The translations under genes were made by a program, and so were the position numbers. Under the pieces are notes generated by a model. That model saw nothing but the letters and a program-made list of their open reading frames with translations, was not told where the DNA came from and made no database searches. This document shows, piece by piece, positions 28,039 to 35,865 of a stretch of 64,000 bases of DNA. Numbering within the stretch: position 1 is the stretch's first letter; each line of letters opens with the position of its first letter. Source of the stretch: Pyrococcus furiosus DSM 3638 (GTDB lineage: Archaea > Methanobacteriota_B > Thermococci > Thermococcales > Thermococcaceae); the NCBI RefSeq assembly GCF_000007305.1, contig NC_003413.1:310001-374000 (forward strand), read 5' to 3'.

Positions 28039-28237
28039 ACTTCCGAATTTTACTCTTATAAACCAATTTTTAAGCTTTATGGTTTTTCAAAAAGTTTTGG
28101 AAAACATTCCAAGGTCAAAAAAGGCAAAAAGCTCTTCCAATCCAGAGGATCTATGTTAGATGTTTGTCAATTAAAACATTACAAAACCTTAATATAGTTT
28201 AAATCATATCTCCTTTAACATTTGGAGATGAGTTAAA

Positions 28238-28678
28238 GTGACAAGTCAAAAAGCTGAATTAAGTTCATCCACTGTGCTTGGGAATGAGAGGCGAATGATG
28301 ATAATTGAGTATCTAATGAAGAGTGATACAAAAACCGCAAAAATATCTGATTTAGTTGATTATATCTGTCAAAAAGAAGGAAATGAAAGTAAAAGGCACC
28401 GCAAGAGTGTGTATGTAAGCTTAATTCAAACCCATATTCCAAGACTTAAAAGGGAAGGGTTCATAACTACTGAGAGAGATGAAATTTACCTCAAGAATGT
28501 TCCTAGTGACGTTGAAAAGTACATATCCTCAGAAGAAGTTATTTTATGGCCTCACATATATGTAACGGTTTCTTTTCTGTTCCTTCTAGCATCTCTAGTT
28601 TTAAATAATGGGTTGGGGGTTGTAATGTCTCTTGTTCTTCTTGGTCTAGCCATATTCCAATGGGTCACAAAAAAGTAA
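28238..28678 (+). CDS. membrane-anchored winged-helix regulator of the secretion operon
   Basis: 146 residues from a GTG at 28238 with GGAGATGAG upstream. A winged-helix region (VLGNERRMMIIEYLMKS, KISDLVDYICQKE, HRKSVYVSLIQTHIPRLKREGFI) is followed by two C-terminal hydrophobic helices (IYVTVSFLFLLASLVL and GVVMSLVLLGLAIFQWV). This matches small archaeal DNA-binding proteins tied to the membrane. It lies 100 bp upstream of the TasA-like genes on the same strand, so it is a natural candidate for their regulator. Confidence 0.75.
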   Translation: MTSQKAELSSSTVLGNERRMMIIEYLMKSDTKTAKISDLVDYICQKEGNESKRHRKSVYVSLIQTHIPRLKREGFITTERDEIYLKNVPSDVEKYISSEEVILWPHIYVTVSFLFLLASLVLNNGLGVVMSLVLLGLAIFQWVTKK

Positions 28679-28705
28679 GCATCTATTACTTCAAGAAACT
28701 TGCAA

Positions 28706-28718
28706 TTACCTATATACC
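28706..28718 (+). promoter_or_regulatory. possible TATA box for the TasA-like operon
   Basis: TACCTATATACC lies about 65 bp upstream of the first TasA-like start, in an otherwise featureless 100-bp gap after the regulator gene. It suits a separate promoter for the secreted proteins. Confidence 0.4.
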
Positions 28719-28781
28719 TGGAGGCTTCTACTCACTATTAGGTCTCAACACTGAGGCCTAAAAAGTTTGGAGATGGAAAAA

Positions 28782-29378
28782 GTGAATAAATTTGGAATGG
28801 CAATGTTGGCTTTGTTGGCAGCATTTGGCCTTATTCTTGGGGCCGGAGCCAACTTTAGAGACTACAACGCAAGCAGAAGCGCCCATTGGGACATAGTTAC
28901 TGACGATACAGAGCTAATAGATCTTGTACCAATACAACCGTACTCATACATAAACGCAACCACCGGAAAATTGGTAATTGACTTTTCAGAAAACAACCCG
29001 AACTACCCAGGATATGGGGACGGAATTAGTCCTGCAAGTGAATACAACTTTGACGAGGTTTTTGGAGTTAGCAACCATCTTTGGGAAGACCTAGACATAG
29101 TAGTGGAAATCTATTCCACAAACTCGCACATAGAGCTTTATGGAGCAGATGGTGAAGTTTATTCAGTTGACGACGGACAAAAGGCAAACGACAGTGATTC
29201 CGCAAGACAACATGTATGTTTTGTGGTTCCACACACTGGACAAGTAAACATTGGCATGGATCTTTCAGCAAATGGAGACTCACCTGGAGATGTTTGGACA
29301 GGAGAAATACAGATCAAAGCATATAGACTTGGGACTGAACCTGCTTACCTGCAAGGTAAGTGTGGGCAGAGCCCATGA
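28782..29378 (+). CDS. TasA/camelysin-like secreted protein (DUF1102 type), paralogue 1
   Basis: 198 residues from the GTG at 28782, which lines up with the start of the next paralogue and has GGAG 9 nt upstream; ATG 28773 is the alternative. The signal peptide is NKFGMAMLALLAAFGLILGAGA. The family signature NFRDYNASR follows at once, then WDIVTDDTELIDLVPIQPYSY and NPNYPGYGDGISPASEY. The body is beta-rich, with a C-terminal Cys pair. Related archaeal proteins build bundling pili by donor-strand exchange and resemble bacterial TasA matrix fibres. That role is inferred here from sequence and from the adjoining SipW-like peptidase. Confidence 0.75.
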   Translation: MNKFGMAMLALLAAFGLILGAGANFRDYNASRSAHWDIVTDDTELIDLVPIQPYSYINATTGKLVIDFSENNPNYPGYGDGISPASEYNFDEVFGVSNHLWEDLDIVVEIYSTNSHIELYGADGEVYSVDDGQKANDSDSARQHVCFVVPHTGQVNIGMDLSANGDSPGDVWTGEIQIKAYRLGTEPAYLQGKCGQSP

Positions 29379-29394
29379 ATTGGAGGTTTGAAGA

Positions 29395-29928
29395 ATGAAT
29401 AAATTGTTTGGAATTGCCCTGTTTCTAGCAGGGCTTATGCTGGCAGTTGGCACTGGAGCCAACTTTAGGTATTTTGAGGCAGATAGGGATGTAAGCGTCG
29501 CCATAGTAGCGGACGATAACGAGCTAATAGACTTAACCCCAGTACAACCCTATGCATATTTGAGCAATGGCAAGTTGACGATAAAGATAAGCCCTGACAA
29601 CACGAACCAATACCCAGGATATGGAGACGGACTTAGCCCAGACTCACTATACGTATTTGAGGAAATGTTTAATGTGAGCAACGAGTTATGGGAGAACGAA
29701 GAGAGCAACTATCCAATCTGTGTTACCATCCAGTCAGAAAACTCACATGTTACCCTATTTGCAGGAACTTATGACTCCCCAATTGCGGGGCCAGGAACAA
29801 GCATAACCTTTACTGTTGAACATGGAAACCCCGTGCCTATAGGCATGATATTTGATATGACTGGAGAAGGCCTCGGATCAGACCAAGGACAGCTTAGCAT
29901 TAGTGCACAAGCTGGAGCATGCGACTGA
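29395..29928 (+). CDS. TasA/camelysin-like secreted protein (DUF1102 type), paralogue 2
   Basis: 177 residues. The signal peptide is NKLFGIALFLAGLMLAVGTGA. The same signature appears as NFRYFEADRDVSVAIVADD, ELIDLTPVQPYAYL, and QYPGYGDGLSPDSLYVFEEMFNVSNELWE. It aligns with paralogue 1 over the whole length, so the pair arose by tandem duplication. The start has GGAGGTTTGAAGA upstream and lies 16 bp after the first copy. It is the probable second fibre subunit. Confidence 0.78.
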   Translation: MNKLFGIALFLAGLMLAVGTGANFRYFEADRDVSVAIVADDNELIDLTPVQPYAYLSNGKLTIKISPDNTNQYPGYGDGLSPDSLYVFEEMFNVSNELWENEESNYPICVTIQSENSHVTLFAGTYDSPIAGPGTSITFTVEHGNPVPIGMIFDMTGEGLGSDQGQLSISAQAGACD

Positions 29929-29944
29929 TAGTTAGGTGCTGAAA

Positions 29945-30940
29945 ATGAGACTAAGGGCCTCCGACGTATTAATGCTACTGGTCCTGGGAGGAGTTGTATT
30001 CCCCTCAGTGGCTGGGTATGTCATGGGGAGGCCCATTTTTGTCTCCTATGTTTACTCAAACAGCATGTATCCAACTCTAAAAAAGTGGGATGTATTTTTC
30101 ATAAACCCCCTCTCTAAGGGAAATGTTGGAGATATAGTTGTGTTTAACCTTTCGGGAAGTTGGACGGTTCACAGAGTCTATGCTATAACAAGTGAAGGTT
30201 ACATAACCAAGGGAGACAATAATGTTGCAACAGATCAGCAGGGAGGAAAGGGATCGCCTATACCAGAGAACCAAGTAATAGGAAAAGTTATAACATTAGG
30301 TGAAAAACCGCTAAAAATACCGAAACTAGGGAAATATCTAGCCTCTAGCAAGAGCAAACTTCCAATTGTCTTCTTAGGCCTAGGTGCGTTACTTCTACTT
30401 CCTGAAAAAAACAGACGAAAAAGAAGGCGAAGGGGAGTAACAATAAGTACAACTGCAACTTATCTGATTGTTATCTCTATATTGACAGCGGGATTTTTTA
30501 TCGTTGGAACGACTAACTGGAGGATTATCAATATCAGCTACGCCTCTACTCTTGGAGGAGGAGAAAGGGAAAATTGGTATCTACCTGGGAGCGTTGTTGA
30601 AAAAAACATAACAGTCCAAAATTTCGCAAAGTATAGAATGATTGGAGTTGTTGAAGGGAAAATAATAAACAAAACTACATTTGCCCTGAATGGCGGAGAT
30701 AAAGTAATGCTACCTGCAACTATAATCGTTCCGAATGAGACTAGGATTTATACCGAGAAAATTAGAGTCTACATGTACTATCCCCTGCTTCCAACCGGAG
30801 TTGTAGAAAGGATGTTTGAAAAATCTCCTTATCTTCCCTTGGCCGTAGAAGCAATGATTGTTTTTCTAGGACTACTAGTGCTTAAACCCTTGCTCATTGG
30901 AGATGAAGAAGAAATAATTATTGGGAGATTTCGAAGATGA
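29945..30940 (+). CDS. SipW-like signal peptidase with C-terminal membrane domain
   Basis: 331 residues from the ATG at 29945; a GTG 9 bp upstream is also in frame. The S26 peptidase half has an N-terminal helix, the nucleophile in YSNSMYPTL, GDIVVFNL, the catalytic His in SWTVHRVYAIT and the GDNN motif, so it is the Ser-His (ER/SipW) type rather than the bacterial Ser-Lys type. A basic linker (NRRKRRRRG) leads to a further helix, a beta-rich extracellular domain of about 100 residues and a last helix. In Bacillus, SipW processes TasA; here the gene follows two TasA-like genes directly. Confidence 0.82.
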   Translation: MRLRASDVLMLLVLGGVVFPSVAGYVMGRPIFVSYVYSNSMYPTLKKWDVFFINPLSKGNVGDIVVFNLSGSWTVHRVYAITSEGYITKGDNNVATDQQGGKGSPIPENQVIGKVITLGEKPLKIPKLGKYLASSKSKLPIVFLGLGALLLLPEKNRRKRRRRGVTISTTATYLIVISILTAGFFIVGTTNWRIINISYASTLGGGERENWYLPGSVVEKNITVQNFAKYRMIGVVEGKIINKTTFALNGGDKVMLPATIIVPNETRIYTEKIRVYMYYPLLPTGVVERMFEKSPYLPLAVEAMIVFLGLLVLKPLLIGDEEEIIIGRFRR

Positions 30941-31320
30941 AGAAATTTATTGGAATATTGCTCATTGCACTCGCCCTTGTGCTTGTCATAAGCTCTTCAG
31001 CCAATTTTAGAGAGTACCAAGCAACTAGGCAAGTAAGAGTTTCGGTAGGGGAAGATCCTTATATTGACGTTTCATGTAAGGCTCCCTTGTTGATAGTGGA
31101 GAATAATCTCGACGAAATTGTATATATAAAGGTTGTAAGGGATGGTTGCTCTTTCTCCTGTCCTAGATGGTGGAAGGTCTACCCAGGGGAAATAGTGCCT
31201 TTTTTCGTATTCCCAGGAGATTACACAGTTTACGCTACCTGGGACGGTGGAGGAGCAAGAATCCATGTGAAGTGTAAATCAAGATGCTGGATTGGAGAGG
31301 AAGAACATGAAAAGGATTGA
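30937..31320 (+). CDS. small Cys-rich secreted protein sharing the TasA-like leader
   Basis: 127 residues. The signal peptide MKKFIGILLIALALVLVISSSA runs into NFREYQATR, the same motif seen in the two larger paralogues, but the body differs. It is short and has six cysteines (VSCKAPL, DGCSFSCPRWW, VKCKSRCW) likely to form disulfides. It overlaps the peptidase by 4 bp (ATGA). A minor, capping or anchoring subunit is plausible but unproven. Confidence 0.7.
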   Translation: MKKFIGILLIALALVLVISSSANFREYQATRQVRVSVGEDPYIDVSCKAPLLIVENNLDEIVYIKVVRDGCSFSCPRWWKVYPGEIVPFFVFPGDYTVYATWDGGGARIHVKCKSRCWIGEEEHEKD

Positions 31321-32230
31321 TAAGAGGGTGTTCTATCTTTCGGTTGGAGCATTTATAGTACTAACTATGCTATCTACTATCGCATATTTAGCTGAACCTA
31401 CCTATAAGAGAAGTGAAGTCACGGCAGTTGTCGTTCAGAAGGGAACGTTGTTCCATAAAGGTCATTTTCTAAACTCGACTATCTTTGGAGAAGAGGCCGC
31501 TTTGTCACACTATCCAACGAAAATTACAGATGCAATCTTTGGCCACTATTCTTACTCGATAACACCTCCTAGCAATGGAAGCTATACCTTAATTGGAGAG
31601 GCTGGGTACTATGTTTCCGCGGGGAAGGAAAAGGTATACCTAGTTAATCAAACAATATTCAACTATTCGGGAAACTTTGAGGGAAGCTTTGATAGGCAAT
31701 TTACTATAAACTTTACGAAAATTCAGCAGGAAAATAACAGGCTCGGCGAGGGCTTAAAGTTGCCTAGGATGTCATATGATATCAAGATAATTGCCAAGGT
31801 TTCAACACCGAGGGGAGAGTTCTCCCAGGTGATGCCGGTAGTTGAAGGTGTCAGCGGATTAACGAGCATAGAAAACACTGAGGTTGTAAAGAGAGAGACG
31901 GAGACTAATGAAGTAACTTTCGATAACTTCATAATTGGTGGATTAAAGGTTTCGACGGCTCGAGTAATATTTCCATTGGGAGCTTTTGTGTTTGGGTTAT
32001 TGGCCTTTGCAACCTGGGAACCAAAGAGAAAACTTAAGATAAGCTCAATAGAAGGAATTCCAAGCGGAATAAAGTCTAGAGTGATACTAAAAGATATCAA
32101 AAGTCTTAAGAAGGTCTCAAGTATCGTGGGGAGTCCAATAATTCATTACTCAATAGATGGGACAGAGATTTATGGGGTTATCGACGGCGCCGTGATCTAC
32201 GAGTTCTGGAAACCTGCTGGCGGTAGTTAA
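31307..32230 (+). CDS. DUF5305-like membrane protein
   Basis: 307 residues from the ATG at 31307 with GGAGAGG upstream. It has an N-terminal helix (VFYLSVGAFIVLTMLSTIAYL), a beta-rich extracellular domain with many N-glycosylation sequons (HFLNSTIF, FNYSGNF, INFTKI), a second helix (VIFPLGAFVFGLLAFATW) and a soluble C-terminal domain of about 75 residues (IIHYSIDGTEIYGVIDGAVIYEFW). This resembles proteins paired with SipW-like peptidases in archaea. It closes the operon and overlaps the convergent surface-protein gene by 53 bp. Confidence 0.65.
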   Translation: MKRIDKRVFYLSVGAFIVLTMLSTIAYLAEPTYKRSEVTAVVVQKGTLFHKGHFLNSTIFGEEAALSHYPTKITDAIFGHYSYSITPPSNGSYTLIGEAGYYVSAGKEKVYLVNQTIFNYSGNFEGSFDRQFTINFTKIQQENNRLGEGLKLPRMSYDIKIIAKVSTPRGEFSQVMPVVEGVSGLTSIENTEVVKRETETNEVTFDNFIIGGLKVSTARVIFPLGAFVFGLLAFATWEPKRKLKISSIEGIPSGIKSRVILKDIKSLKKVSSIVGSPIIHYSIDGTEIYGVIDGAVIYEFWKPAGGS

Positions 32231-34142
32231 ACCATGCTATCAGGAGGATTAGCATAATTCCCGTTATAACCCCCACTGCCCATGAAATTATCGTTGGAAG
32301 CATTCCAGGTGGCTGGGTTTCAGTTAAGGTGACGGTAGTTGCCACCGTTCTAACTTCACTTTTAGTTTCAGTCTTAGTTATTGTTTCCTGGGTAAGAGTT
32401 GTTGTTTCAGTAAGTGTTTCGGTAAGGGTAATCATTGATGTCTCAGTTTTTGTTATCGTAACATAGTTCTCTTCTCCCTCTCTTGCTGTGGTCTCAAAGG
32501 TTGCCTCTGCTTGAGATATCTCCTTTGAATCAATTGTTAGGAGGGCTTTAATTTTATGGAAACCTGGATTGAGAGAGACTAATGTTAGGGTGGTATTTTT
32601 AGGCGGAAGGATTACCTCCTTTCCTACTAATCTTCCATTGTACAACACTCCAATTCCTTCAGGCAGTATGAGAGTAATGTTTCCAGCAACATTTTTGTTT
32701 AGGCTAATAGTTACATTGAAGGGTTTTCCTAACTCTACAGTTTTTGGTACGTCTATAGAGAGCATTGGAGTAAACGACTCGACAAAAGCATTTGGCGAGT
32801 TGGAGGAGAATTCAATGACGTCAAGACCTCCGCATGCAAGTGGATAAGGAATGGGAGCTCTGATAACTGCATTGCCTAGATTGACAGTTCCATTTACTAG
32901 AGGCACAATCTCTATCGAATATTCAACCTCTTTCCCAGGCTCAAGCTTTTCTATGTAGAATGCAGAATCCCCCGAGATCTTTATCCCATCTCCTGGGAAA
33001 AACGTTAAAAAGGCACCAATGACTCTGCTATTCCCCTCGTTTATTACCTTTATCTTAAGAGCGGAGGGTTTATACTGAATAAGCTTTTCTGGAGGTATTA
33101 TAGTCACATTTAGGTATGCTAAATATCTGGGCTTTTCTTCTTGGTTGTAAGTGTAAAGTACTATTGCCTTTTTTCCGCTGGAGTCGCTCTCACTTCCAAC
33201 TATTCCAATGGTTAAGCCATCATAAGTTATGCCTTGAATGATATTATCCCTAACAAAAGATTTTCCAAAGAAGATTTCATCTCCACAATTATTCATTATG
33301 CTGAAATAAGCTGTATCTCCAGATATTCCTACAGGCCTAACCAGGAATTCTCCTATCTTATAATCCTTCTTTTCGTACATCTCGATTTTAGTGAAGGGGG
33401 TGTAGGAAATCGAGACTTCAGCCCCCCTTAAGTACACTTCAAGCGATATTCGCGGGTCGCATAAGTTGTTTACCATTTCGCACCTAAATCCGTTGTACTT
33501 CACTATAAACGGTCCTATAGATTTGCTTTCGTCCTCTTTTACTTCATAAGTCTTGTCGTCATATCTAAGTGTAACCACGCTTACCGTTTTGTTATTTACA
33601 ATACTCATGTTGAGGCTTTCTATTGTTAGCTTATAGGAAGAGTATGTAATATTGTCTCCAATCTTGACTTCTCCAGAGAATATTTTTGGATGGGGTTTTA
33701 GGGAAACTTTATATCCTTCATGTTCAAAAGTAGTGCTTGTATAAGTTTTGTTCCCAACTTGCACTTTTATAGAGTCTAAAGTTACATTTACCAATGAGAG
33801 GGTAAATTTTCCAACTTTAACTCTTCCCCCCACTAAGACTGGCTCAAAGGTGGCGTTAATGTAGGTTAAATTTGTGCCCGAGAGGAATATCTTTTCAACT
33901 TTCACTTTAATTCCTAAGACTTCAGAACTTCCCCCAATCTTTAAGGTGGTGTAAGTAACTTCATTCCCCCTACTAACTTCTACTAAAATATTGCCATCAA
34001 CTGAAATATCCACGATTCTTATGGAATAATCACCATAATTTATGCTCTCTCCTACTTCTATCCATCCTGTGTAGCTTGATCCTTCGACATAAGGAATGAA
34101 GAGCACCCAAATGAGTGCTATAACTGTTACTAGTCTTTTCAT
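32178..34142 (-). CDS. large surface protein with Thr-rich stalk, last gene of the archaellum operon
   Basis: 654 residues from the ATG at 34142 (MKRLVTVIALIWVLFIPYVEGSS), which has GAGGTG 6 nt upstream; starts at 34148 and 34151 are possible. The signal peptide is followed by three or four related beta-sandwich-like repeats, each opening with a phrase such as VGESINYGDYSIRIVDIS, VGGRVKVGKFTLSLVNV or GEVKIGDNITYSSYKLTIES. A CARDB-like domain (GNSRVIGAFLTFFPGDG) and a Thr/Glu-rich stalk (TLTETLTETTTLTQETIT) come next, then one C-terminal helix and a basic tail. It immediately follows flaJ. It may be a cell-envelope partner of the motor, but it has no known function. Confidence 0.75.
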   Translation of the reverse strand: MKRLVTVIALIWVLFIPYVEGSSYTGWIEVGESINYGDYSIRIVDISVDGNILVEVSRGNEVTYTTLKIGGSSEVLGIKVKVEKIFLSGTNLTYINATFEPVLVGGRVKVGKFTLSLVNVTLDSIKVQVGNKTYTSTTFEHEGYKVSLKPHPKIFSGEVKIGDNITYSSYKLTIESLNMSIVNNKTVSVVTLRYDDKTYEVKEDESKSIGPFIVKYNGFRCEMVNNLCDPRISLEVYLRGAEVSISYTPFTKIEMYEKKDYKIGEFLVRPVGISGDTAYFSIMNNCGDEIFFGKSFVRDNIIQGITYDGLTIGIVGSESDSSGKKAIVLYTYNQEEKPRYLAYLNVTIIPPEKLIQYKPSALKIKVINEGNSRVIGAFLTFFPGDGIKISGDSAFYIEKLEPGKEVEYSIEIVPLVNGTVNLGNAVIRAPIPYPLACGGLDVIEFSSNSPNAFVESFTPMLSIDVPKTVELGKPFNVTISLNKNVAGNITLILPEGIGVLYNGRLVGKEVILPPKNTTLTLVSLNPGFHKIKALLTIDSKEISQAEATFETTAREGEENYVTITKTETSMITLTETLTETTTLTQETITKTETKSEVRTVATTVTLTETQPPGMLPTIISWAVGVITGIMLILLIAWFNYRQQVSRTRRSRRRR

Positions 34143-34147
34143 CTTCA

Positions 34148-35854
34148 TCACCTCACTAAAAGCAAGATCATTTCAGTAGTGCCAAAGTTCATGAACCTCG
34201 CCATTAGGAGTTGACCGACATACATTCCTGCGGCAAATACCCAGAGCAAAATTACGAAATAGTACAATGAGACTAGCAAATGCCCGCCATCAGCAACCTT
34301 TATTGCCACAGCTGAAAGGAAGGAGTGAAGGATCATTAGCGTAAGCATTGAGATTGTTAGGAGTTGCATTCCTGAGGGTGGAATGATGTGAATTATTTCT
34401 CCTATGTATTCAGTTGGAACTTGAAGTTGACTAAAGAGGTTGTTAATCGAAACAGCTACTTGGAAGGATGCAGCTAGGGAAAATGCAAATGCTCCCGTTA
34501 GTCCAAGAATTATTCCAATGAAGTTGGATATGCTCTGCTGCCTCTTTCTCCTGAGACGAACTATCCTCTCGAAATTCCTACTAATTACCTTACCTACATA
34601 GTCGGGCTCTGCTCCTAGCCTTAAGCTTTCTCTAAATATCTCAGAGAACATTCCAACAAGCCAGCTTCCAGTTTCGGCAATAAAGTAATCCCAGGCTCTA
34701 TCTTGATCAACTCTTATGGCTAATCTCCTGTATAGGGCTTTTATATCCTCTGTGAGAGTTCCAAAATCGTGGGCACTTAAGTACTTCAAAACTAGAAGTA
34801 GAGAAGCACCGCTCGCTGCCAGTGATGAGGATAAACTTCTAATGAATGCTGGAAAATTCTCATCTTTCCTAAATATAACCCCTTCTTCTTTTCTGACAAC
34901 ATTTCCTACATATGCAAGAGGAGTGAGTATTATAGCCACCACAAAGGGTGTCGGGATTGAAAATCTCGGTCTAATAAAGAGGAAATACACTAATCCAACA
35001 ATTGGAACTAAGAGAATTGATAAGATAAGAGCCTTCCTAATCTTCACCATTCTTGGAGTTCTGACCTTAGCCTCAGCCCATATTGGATCTTCTGGCATTC
35101 TATACTTAATGACAAGAAGTGCTCCAACTTCAGCTGCCAAGATCATAAATATTAAGTACAAGGCCAGCCTACCTATATCCTGACCAGTAATCAAGGGTCC
35201 AATTATTATGAATGCACCAGCAAAAACTACCGAGATTATTATTGACTCATATATCTCTTTAAATATGTCAAGGTCATACAGTGCCCCCTCGTAGAATGTC
35301 TGATAATCATCCATAACAGTTTGTTGCTCTTGGAATAGGTATTCTTTCAGCTCAACACCACTATCAAGTGAATATGCTAATCTGTCAAGAAAATCTGCAA
35401 ATACTCTGCTTGGTGTTCTTCTAGCCAAAAATCTAAATGCCTCTGGAAGAGAGCGGTGGAACTTATCTACCAATACATACACCTTTTTCAGTTCCTTTGC
35501 TATGGCCCCAAGCTTTGGATCTTGGGCCATTACCTTTAGTAGATCGCTTCTTCCAATTTCACTTGTAGAAAGGACTGCAAAGTATGTGATAAAGTAGGGG
35601 ATCTTGGAGTTTATGGCAATTTTCTTGGAATCAGCAATTAGATATGGATAAGCAGTAGTGTAAAACATCAGAATAATGGGGATTAAGTACATGAAGACCT
35701 TTAATCCAGTTGGTAGGGTAAATATTCTTGTAAATATCATAATAGCCAACAACGTAGCGAAAGATCCAACTATCCCAGGGATAAGAATTTTCTTCATATA
35801 TTCTTTGGGGTCTATGTCTGCCTTTACAAATATACTGGCCTTTTCCTCTGGCAT
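34148..35854 (-). CDS. flaJ: archaellum assembly membrane protein FlaJ/ArlJ
   Basis: About 568 residues from the ATG at 35854 (GGTGGTGAAG upstream). It is the polytopic platform protein of the archaellum, which anchors the filament and couples to FlaI. The sequence shows the two T2SF-like blocks (LPEAFRFLARRTPSRVFADFLDRLAY and DRAWDYFIAETGSWLVGMFSEIFRESLRLG) and about nine membrane helices. It is 11 bp downstream of flaI. Confidence 0.93.
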   Translation of the reverse strand: MPEEKASIFVKADIDPKEYMKKILIPGIVGSFATLLAIMIFTRIFTLPTGLKVFMYLIPIILMFYTTAYPYLIADSKKIAINSKIPYFITYFAVLSTSEIGRSDLLKVMAQDPKLGAIAKELKKVYVLVDKFHRSLPEAFRFLARRTPSRVFADFLDRLAYSLDSGVELKEYLFQEQQTVMDDYQTFYEGALYDLDIFKEIYESIIISVVFAGAFIIIGPLITGQDIGRLALYLIFMILAAEVGALLVIKYRMPEDPIWAEAKVRTPRMVKIRKALILSILLVPIVGLVYFLFIRPRFSIPTPFVVAIILTPLAYVGNVVRKEEGVIFRKDENFPAFIRSLSSSLAASGASLLLVLKYLSAHDFGTLTEDIKALYRRLAIRVDQDRAWDYFIAETGSWLVGMFSEIFRESLRLGAEPDYVGKVISRNFERIVRLRRKRQQSISNFIGIILGLTGAFAFSLAASFQVAVSINNLFSQLQVPTEYIGEIIHIIPPSGMQLLTISMLTLMILHSFLSAVAIKVADGGHLLVSLYYFVILLWVFAAGMYVGQLLMARFMNFGTTEMILLLVR

Positions 35855-35865
35855 CTTCACCACCG

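Follow-up and report, generated by a model that had tools for sequence, protein, structure and literature searches.

What does the six-gene cluster on the + strand at positions 28238-32230 of our Pyrococcus furiosus DSM 3638 window make, and how might the product be assembled? The window is a stretch of 64,000 nucleotides (contig NC_003413.1, positions 310,001 to 374,000), and the cluster carries genes for a DUF7344 winged-helix protein, two DUF1102 proteins, a signal peptidase, a cysteine-rich protein and a DUF5305-like protein (Table 1). A first-pass annotation, made from the sequence alone, read it as an operon for a TasA-like extracellular fibre with a dedicated SipW-like peptidase. We give a probability of roughly 0.8 to a thin extracellular fimbria, assembled through donor-strand exchange, as the product of the operon; the fibre and the dedicated peptidase are supported by predicted folds, by a phenylalanine at P2' of the leaders and by a second signal peptidase in seven of seven genomes. 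New are the DUF1102 assignment, a third pilin lacking most of its first strand, a variable end-protein slot and a link to Taf-type loci via peptidase and regulator; in the openly licensed PMC literature, outside which most subscription journals lie, we found no paper on DUF1102, Taf/Tafi pili or this operon.

The close spacing on one strand downstream of the winged-helix gene, as described earlier, is borne out, with gaps of 16 nt (pilin 1/pilin 2) and 7 nt (pilin 2/peptidase) and overlaps of 4 and 14 nt between the subsequent genes. The order pilin 1, pilin 2, optional pilin 3, peptidase, end protein and DUF5305 on one strand is kept in 56 of 63 fetched loci (4-17 kb long and not all independent; the end protein was recognised by position), which is far above chance. 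In 53 of the 63 a winged-helix homologue precedes pilin 1 by less than 1 kb on the same strand, and in one it is 5 kb off. Of the seven loci outside this order, four are truncated at contig ends, another is empty, L096 is broken and fragmented, and L097 has a pilin remnant; at L095, where the match is below the cut-off, there is no cluster. At L097:6623-10173 regulator, peptidase, end protein and DUF5305 are kept and the pilin is a C-terminal remnant between regulator and peptidase.

In the order of G001 (contig titled Thermococcus) 87 of 94 genomes have DUF1102. Its phylum has it in 88 of 115 (a single one below the curated cut-off), and the phylum of G002 (contig titled Archaeoglobus) in 31 of the 196 genomes sampled; the system is also present on contigs titled Archaeoglobus, Geoglobus and Archaeoglobi. 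The operon is general to the Thermococcales, with a diverged form in probable haloarchaea. In a genome of the phylum of G002, a second cluster at L133:6532-13488 has four pilin-like genes, one encoding more than 520 amino acids (aa), and there the end-protein homologue precedes the peptidase.

Pilins 1 and 2 are indeed tandem secreted paralogues with a common leader, as had been proposed: both are DUF1102 proteins, 46% identical, and together with the cysteine-rich protein they have the signature NFR(D/Y/E)(Y/F)xAxR following a leader that ends in A. This hydrophobic leader, ending A|NF with a predicted cleavage site, is encoded beside a signal peptidase I gene, and among the 154 window open reading frames (ORFs) of at least 60 aa a regular expression for it matched the three secreted proteins and one other ORF. 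Related loci gave 151 pilin-like ORFs, i.e. 120 with the leader pattern, 29 third pilins and two other fragments. In the 120, which were picked by a pattern that itself demands A and the Phe-at-P2' form, Ala precedes the predicted cut and is followed by NF (80), TF (32), HF (6) or SF (2). In TasA, Phe at P2' is the feature that makes SipW necessary (PMC10269814).

The AlphaFold2 (AF2) model of pilin 2 is a beta sandwich that matches solved donor-strand pilins with moderate scores, the nearest solved folds among the matches listed being FimA, the Pyrobaculum bundling pilus, Tafi and the Sulfolobus thread; searching the PDB by sequence, with single sequences and with profiles, gave no credible match. 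An unrelated fold, the outcome named beforehand as speaking against the first reading, did not arise; TasA was absent among the matches listed. On the basis of this model the DUF1102 proteins are most likely donor-strand pilin subunits, which would be cleaved and then polymerise. The type 1 pilus subunit FimA and the Sulfolobus thread (Saci_0406, PDB 7pnb), both of which form donor-strand filaments, resemble the predicted pilin fold; FimA requires a chaperone and an outer-membrane usher. The leader of the thread has a predicted cut at LVA/DV and no Phe at P2' (PMC9715654). The bundling pilus of Pyrobaculum calidifontis (PDB 7ueg, whose subunits are presumably AbpX/AbpA) is likewise similar in fold, but the DUF1102 pilins have no sequence match to it.

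A third DUF1102 paralogue, absent from the window, is present in 29 loci (e.g. L055:7008-7526) and has a different leader without A|NF. The conserved Tyr follows 30 residues in all 120 pilins 1 and 2 but 13-18 in all 29 third pilins (the end of their leader being a guess), so that most of the first strand is missing. Along with the ranges aligned in the structural matches, this shortening is an indirect sign that the N-terminal strand inserts into the next subunit of a filament. Such a protein could accept a strand but not donate one, and from its sequence the third pilin is therefore a candidate end cap.

The earlier description of a signal peptidase with an extra domain is confirmed, the enzyme being of the archaeal type with a C-terminal extension. 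S41, H77, D92 and D98 are invariant in an alignment of 49 sequences, and the extra domain, flanked by hydrophobic helices, is predicted to be an Ig-like beta sandwich. Elsewhere in each of the seven genomes with a window-like cluster there is a stronger, shorter canonical peptidase (160-181 aa and 132-163 bits, compared with 326-343 aa and 59-72 bits for the operon enzymes), and for that reason the enzyme of the operon seems to be a second, dedicated signal peptidase. It matched the SipW model NF046067 weakly (24 bits, cut-off 190). Profile comparisons found the peptidase unrelated to DUF5305 (probability 2) and the extra domain weakly matched to the end protein (35).

Five cysteines, not the six first reported, were counted in the cysteine-rich protein, and its body, which had been described as differing from that of the pilins, is tied to them by profile-profile comparison of the end-protein N-terminal domain (probability 97.9). 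After trimming of the first 20 residues from end protein and pilins the match was 86 over only 24 columns; five shuffled controls never exceeded 1.1 and the reversed control gave 4.7. End proteins in 58 loci are 123-163 aa (11 loci, one of them the L096 fragment), 272-349 aa (39) or 423-481 aa (8) long, and short and long forms have a common N-terminal domain (alignment of 41). DUF11 scored above its cut-off in two of three scanned long forms and fell short in the other (21.6 of 24.6 bits). The leader pattern with Phe at P2' is present in 48 of the 58, and in seven of the remaining ten x-F was seen there by eye. The window protein is probably a short, pilin-related form of this variable end protein. 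It may serve as tip, starter or anchor by analogy with the minor subunit TapA, for which such a role is described (PMC10903470), and with AbpA, for which one is suggested (PMC9715654).

Of the two remaining partners, the DUF7344 protein ends in two hydrophobic segments (read by eye), and the DUF5305-like protein has, by eye, an N-terminal anchor, an extracellular domain, a C-terminal membrane helix and a cytosolic tail. Three scanned orthologues of the latter are above the DUF5305 cut-off, while the window protein itself reaches 15.4 bits against a Pfam cut-off of 29.

Which known pili have loci of this kind? One of the closest known systems is the Natrinema Tafi pilus (PDB 9p0a, which from its name we take to be TafA; NCBIfam TafA, TafE). 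TafA loci are similar in peptidase and regulator, but TafA has no DUF1102 profile match. Peptidase and DUF7344-type regulator are present in all four TafA loci studied (three over the cut-off, one below) and DUF5305 in one, with the peptidase profile spanning the extra domain wholly or partly. Comparing TafA with DUF1102 by profile gave no significant alignment, and the TafA model (NF052520, cut-off 190 bits) aligned with the window pilin at 18.2 bits in the leader region only; it was matched in none of 61 sampled Thermococcales genomes and in 23 of 196 genomes of another scan. The common peptidase and regulator, together with pilins that cannot be aligned, suggest the same kind of locus in which the pilins have diverged or been exchanged. 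Around weak DUF1102 matches, ten loci from eight genomes, probably haloarchaeal, hold the regulator in eight, the peptidase in seven and DUF5305 in six; at L128, DUF7344, DUF1102, TIGR02228 and DUF5305 are each above cut-off. Clusters with DUF1102-like proteins, some longer than 500 aa, were also seen at L124, L125, L129 and L130 (probably haloarchaeal), with several such proteins in a row at L124 and L125 and the same peptidase type at L124 and L130.

Taken as a fimbria operon, the cluster could work as follows. The two DUF1102 pilins and the cysteine-rich protein would be exported, and the Ser/His/Asp operon peptidase would cut after the leader at A|NF. In the monomer the freed N-terminal strand would fold back onto the subunit it belongs to; once in the fibre it would shift to occupy the groove of the following subunit. 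The end protein (cysteine-rich here, longer in most other loci) would take up one end of the fibre, be it as tip, starter or anchor, while the membrane-attached DUF5305 protein and the Ig-like domain of the peptidase might hold or feed the growing base, and the membrane-bound DUF7344 protein would control the operon. A bolder version, rather unlikely in our judgement, makes the peptidase itself the assembly platform: its Ig-like domain, with membrane segments on both sides, would be a built-in donor-strand chaperone that keeps hold of each pilin during leader cleavage and passes it on to the base of the fibre, coupling cleavage to polymerisation, and the strandless third pilin (in other species) and the variable DUF11-bearing or cysteine-rich end protein would cap the two ends.

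The same leaders and beta sandwiches might instead belong to secreted or S-layer-associated monomers, e.g. ligand-binding or envelope proteins, that carry a SipW-like leader but form no polymer. The top structural matches, which include four kinds of donor-strand pilus, the strictly kept length of the N-terminal segment, truncated in one paralogue, and the neighbourhood held in common with TafA loci all speak for polymerising subunits, and we consider monomers quite unlikely. Descent from the TasA/camelysin family, i.e. an archaeal tapA-sipW-tasA, has Phe at P2', an ER-type peptidase with a weak SipW match and, as with TasA and TapA, a pilin whose companion end subunit may be related to it in its favour. 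The Bacillus subtilis TasA-TapA-SipW system is alike in Phe at P2', in an archaeal-like dedicated peptidase and in having a pilin with a minor starter subunit. However, the pilins have no Pfam or NCBIfam match to TasA/camelysin (Peptidase_M73) at E up to 1, TasA is absent among the structural matches listed for pilin 2, the folds that come closest belong to archaeal pili and to FimA, and the Thermococcales operon adds the Ig-like peptidase domain, DUF5305 and DUF7344. Membership of the TasA family is consequently not established, and we regard such descent as unlikely.

The last gene of the operon stands tail to tail with a convergent pair encoding a surface protein (32178-34151) and the archaellum protein ArlJ (34148-35863; NF004704, 775.7 bits), from which one might suppose that the operon serves the archaellum as an accessory. 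But within the 4-17 kb fetched per locus ArlJ is present in only seven of the 63, all of them window-like, the two clusters are separate in most loci, and the leaders are by eye not class III-like; because of the 7 of 63 loci we set this aside as highly improbable.

If the donor-strand fimbria is real, DUF1102 gains a function, as does a cluster that almost every sampled genome of the genetically tractable Thermococcales carries, and this cluster is joined with probable haloarchaeal loci via a common peptidase and regulator. Donor-strand assembly without chaperone and usher would then be testable in a hyperthermophile, with a pilin lacking most of its donor strand, an end protein of ~120 to 480 residues and a peptidase bearing an Ig-like domain as ready test parts.

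Table 1. Positions, strand and supporting data for features of the putative fimbria operon in the window.
Feature	Position	Strand	Remarks
Membrane-anchored winged-helix regulator DUF7344	28238..28678	+	PF24035 61 bits, cut-off 27.8; GTG start
TATA-like promoter element CTATATA	28710..28716	+	Upstream of pilin genes; from sequence
Hairpin TTAGGTCTCA-ACAC-TGAGGCCTAA	28738..28761	+	10-bp stem, z -3.2; near expected 5' end of pilin mRNA
Predicted pilin 1 (DUF1102)	28773..29378	+	PF06510 197 bits, E 2e-58; leader GAGA|NFRDYNASR
Predicted pilin 2 (DUF1102)	29395..29928	+	PF06510 211 bits, E 1e-62; leader GTGA|NFRYFEADR
Archaeal/ER-type signal peptidase with C-terminal extra domain	29936..30940	+	TIGR02228 65.6 bits, cut-off 51.85
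Predicted Ig-like beta-sandwich extra domain of peptidase	30515..30778	+	Model residues 192-279
Small five-cysteine putative end/tip protein	30937..31320	+	Leader SSSA|NFREYQATR; probable short form of variable slot
DUF5305-like membrane protein	31307..32230	+	PF17231 weak in window, over cut-off in three orthologues

Alternative starts are available for pilin 1 (TTG at 28767), the peptidase (ATG at 29945) and the DUF5305-like gene (TTG at 31292).

The TATA-like pattern was matched in 53 of 61 upstream regions (window and 60 loci), and the eight loci without it were dropped from the stem tests. In the window the hairpin starts 28 nt past CTATATA; a good share of the related loci have counterparts whose stems differ in sequence but lie about as far from the TATA element. 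Folding z over the 53 regions averaged -2.1, with 26 below -2, and in a stem search against mononucleotide shuffles p was <0.05 in 23 regions and not in the other 30; 19 of the 23 significant stems start +24 to +33 from the TATA element. Ten out of 22 hairpins gave seven consensus pairs, three of them changed on both sides with G-U pairs tolerated, which favours RNA over a DNA operator; having been picked and trimmed by hand, the ten make the covariation a selected result, and a consensus fold of the unselected 22 gave 0 pairs from a visibly poor alignment. Our guess is that the hairpin is a stabilising 5' end of an abundant pilin mRNA. The hairpin had no Rfam match; the only hit that Rfam gave within 28100-32300 reached 18.6 bits, where the gathering score is 86, and was taken as chance.

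Downstream of the operon, the surface protein at 32178-34151 (- strand) is large, with a Thr-rich linker and a hydrophobic helix at its end; its gene adjoins that of ArlJ, as do those of its homologues in seven fetched loci.
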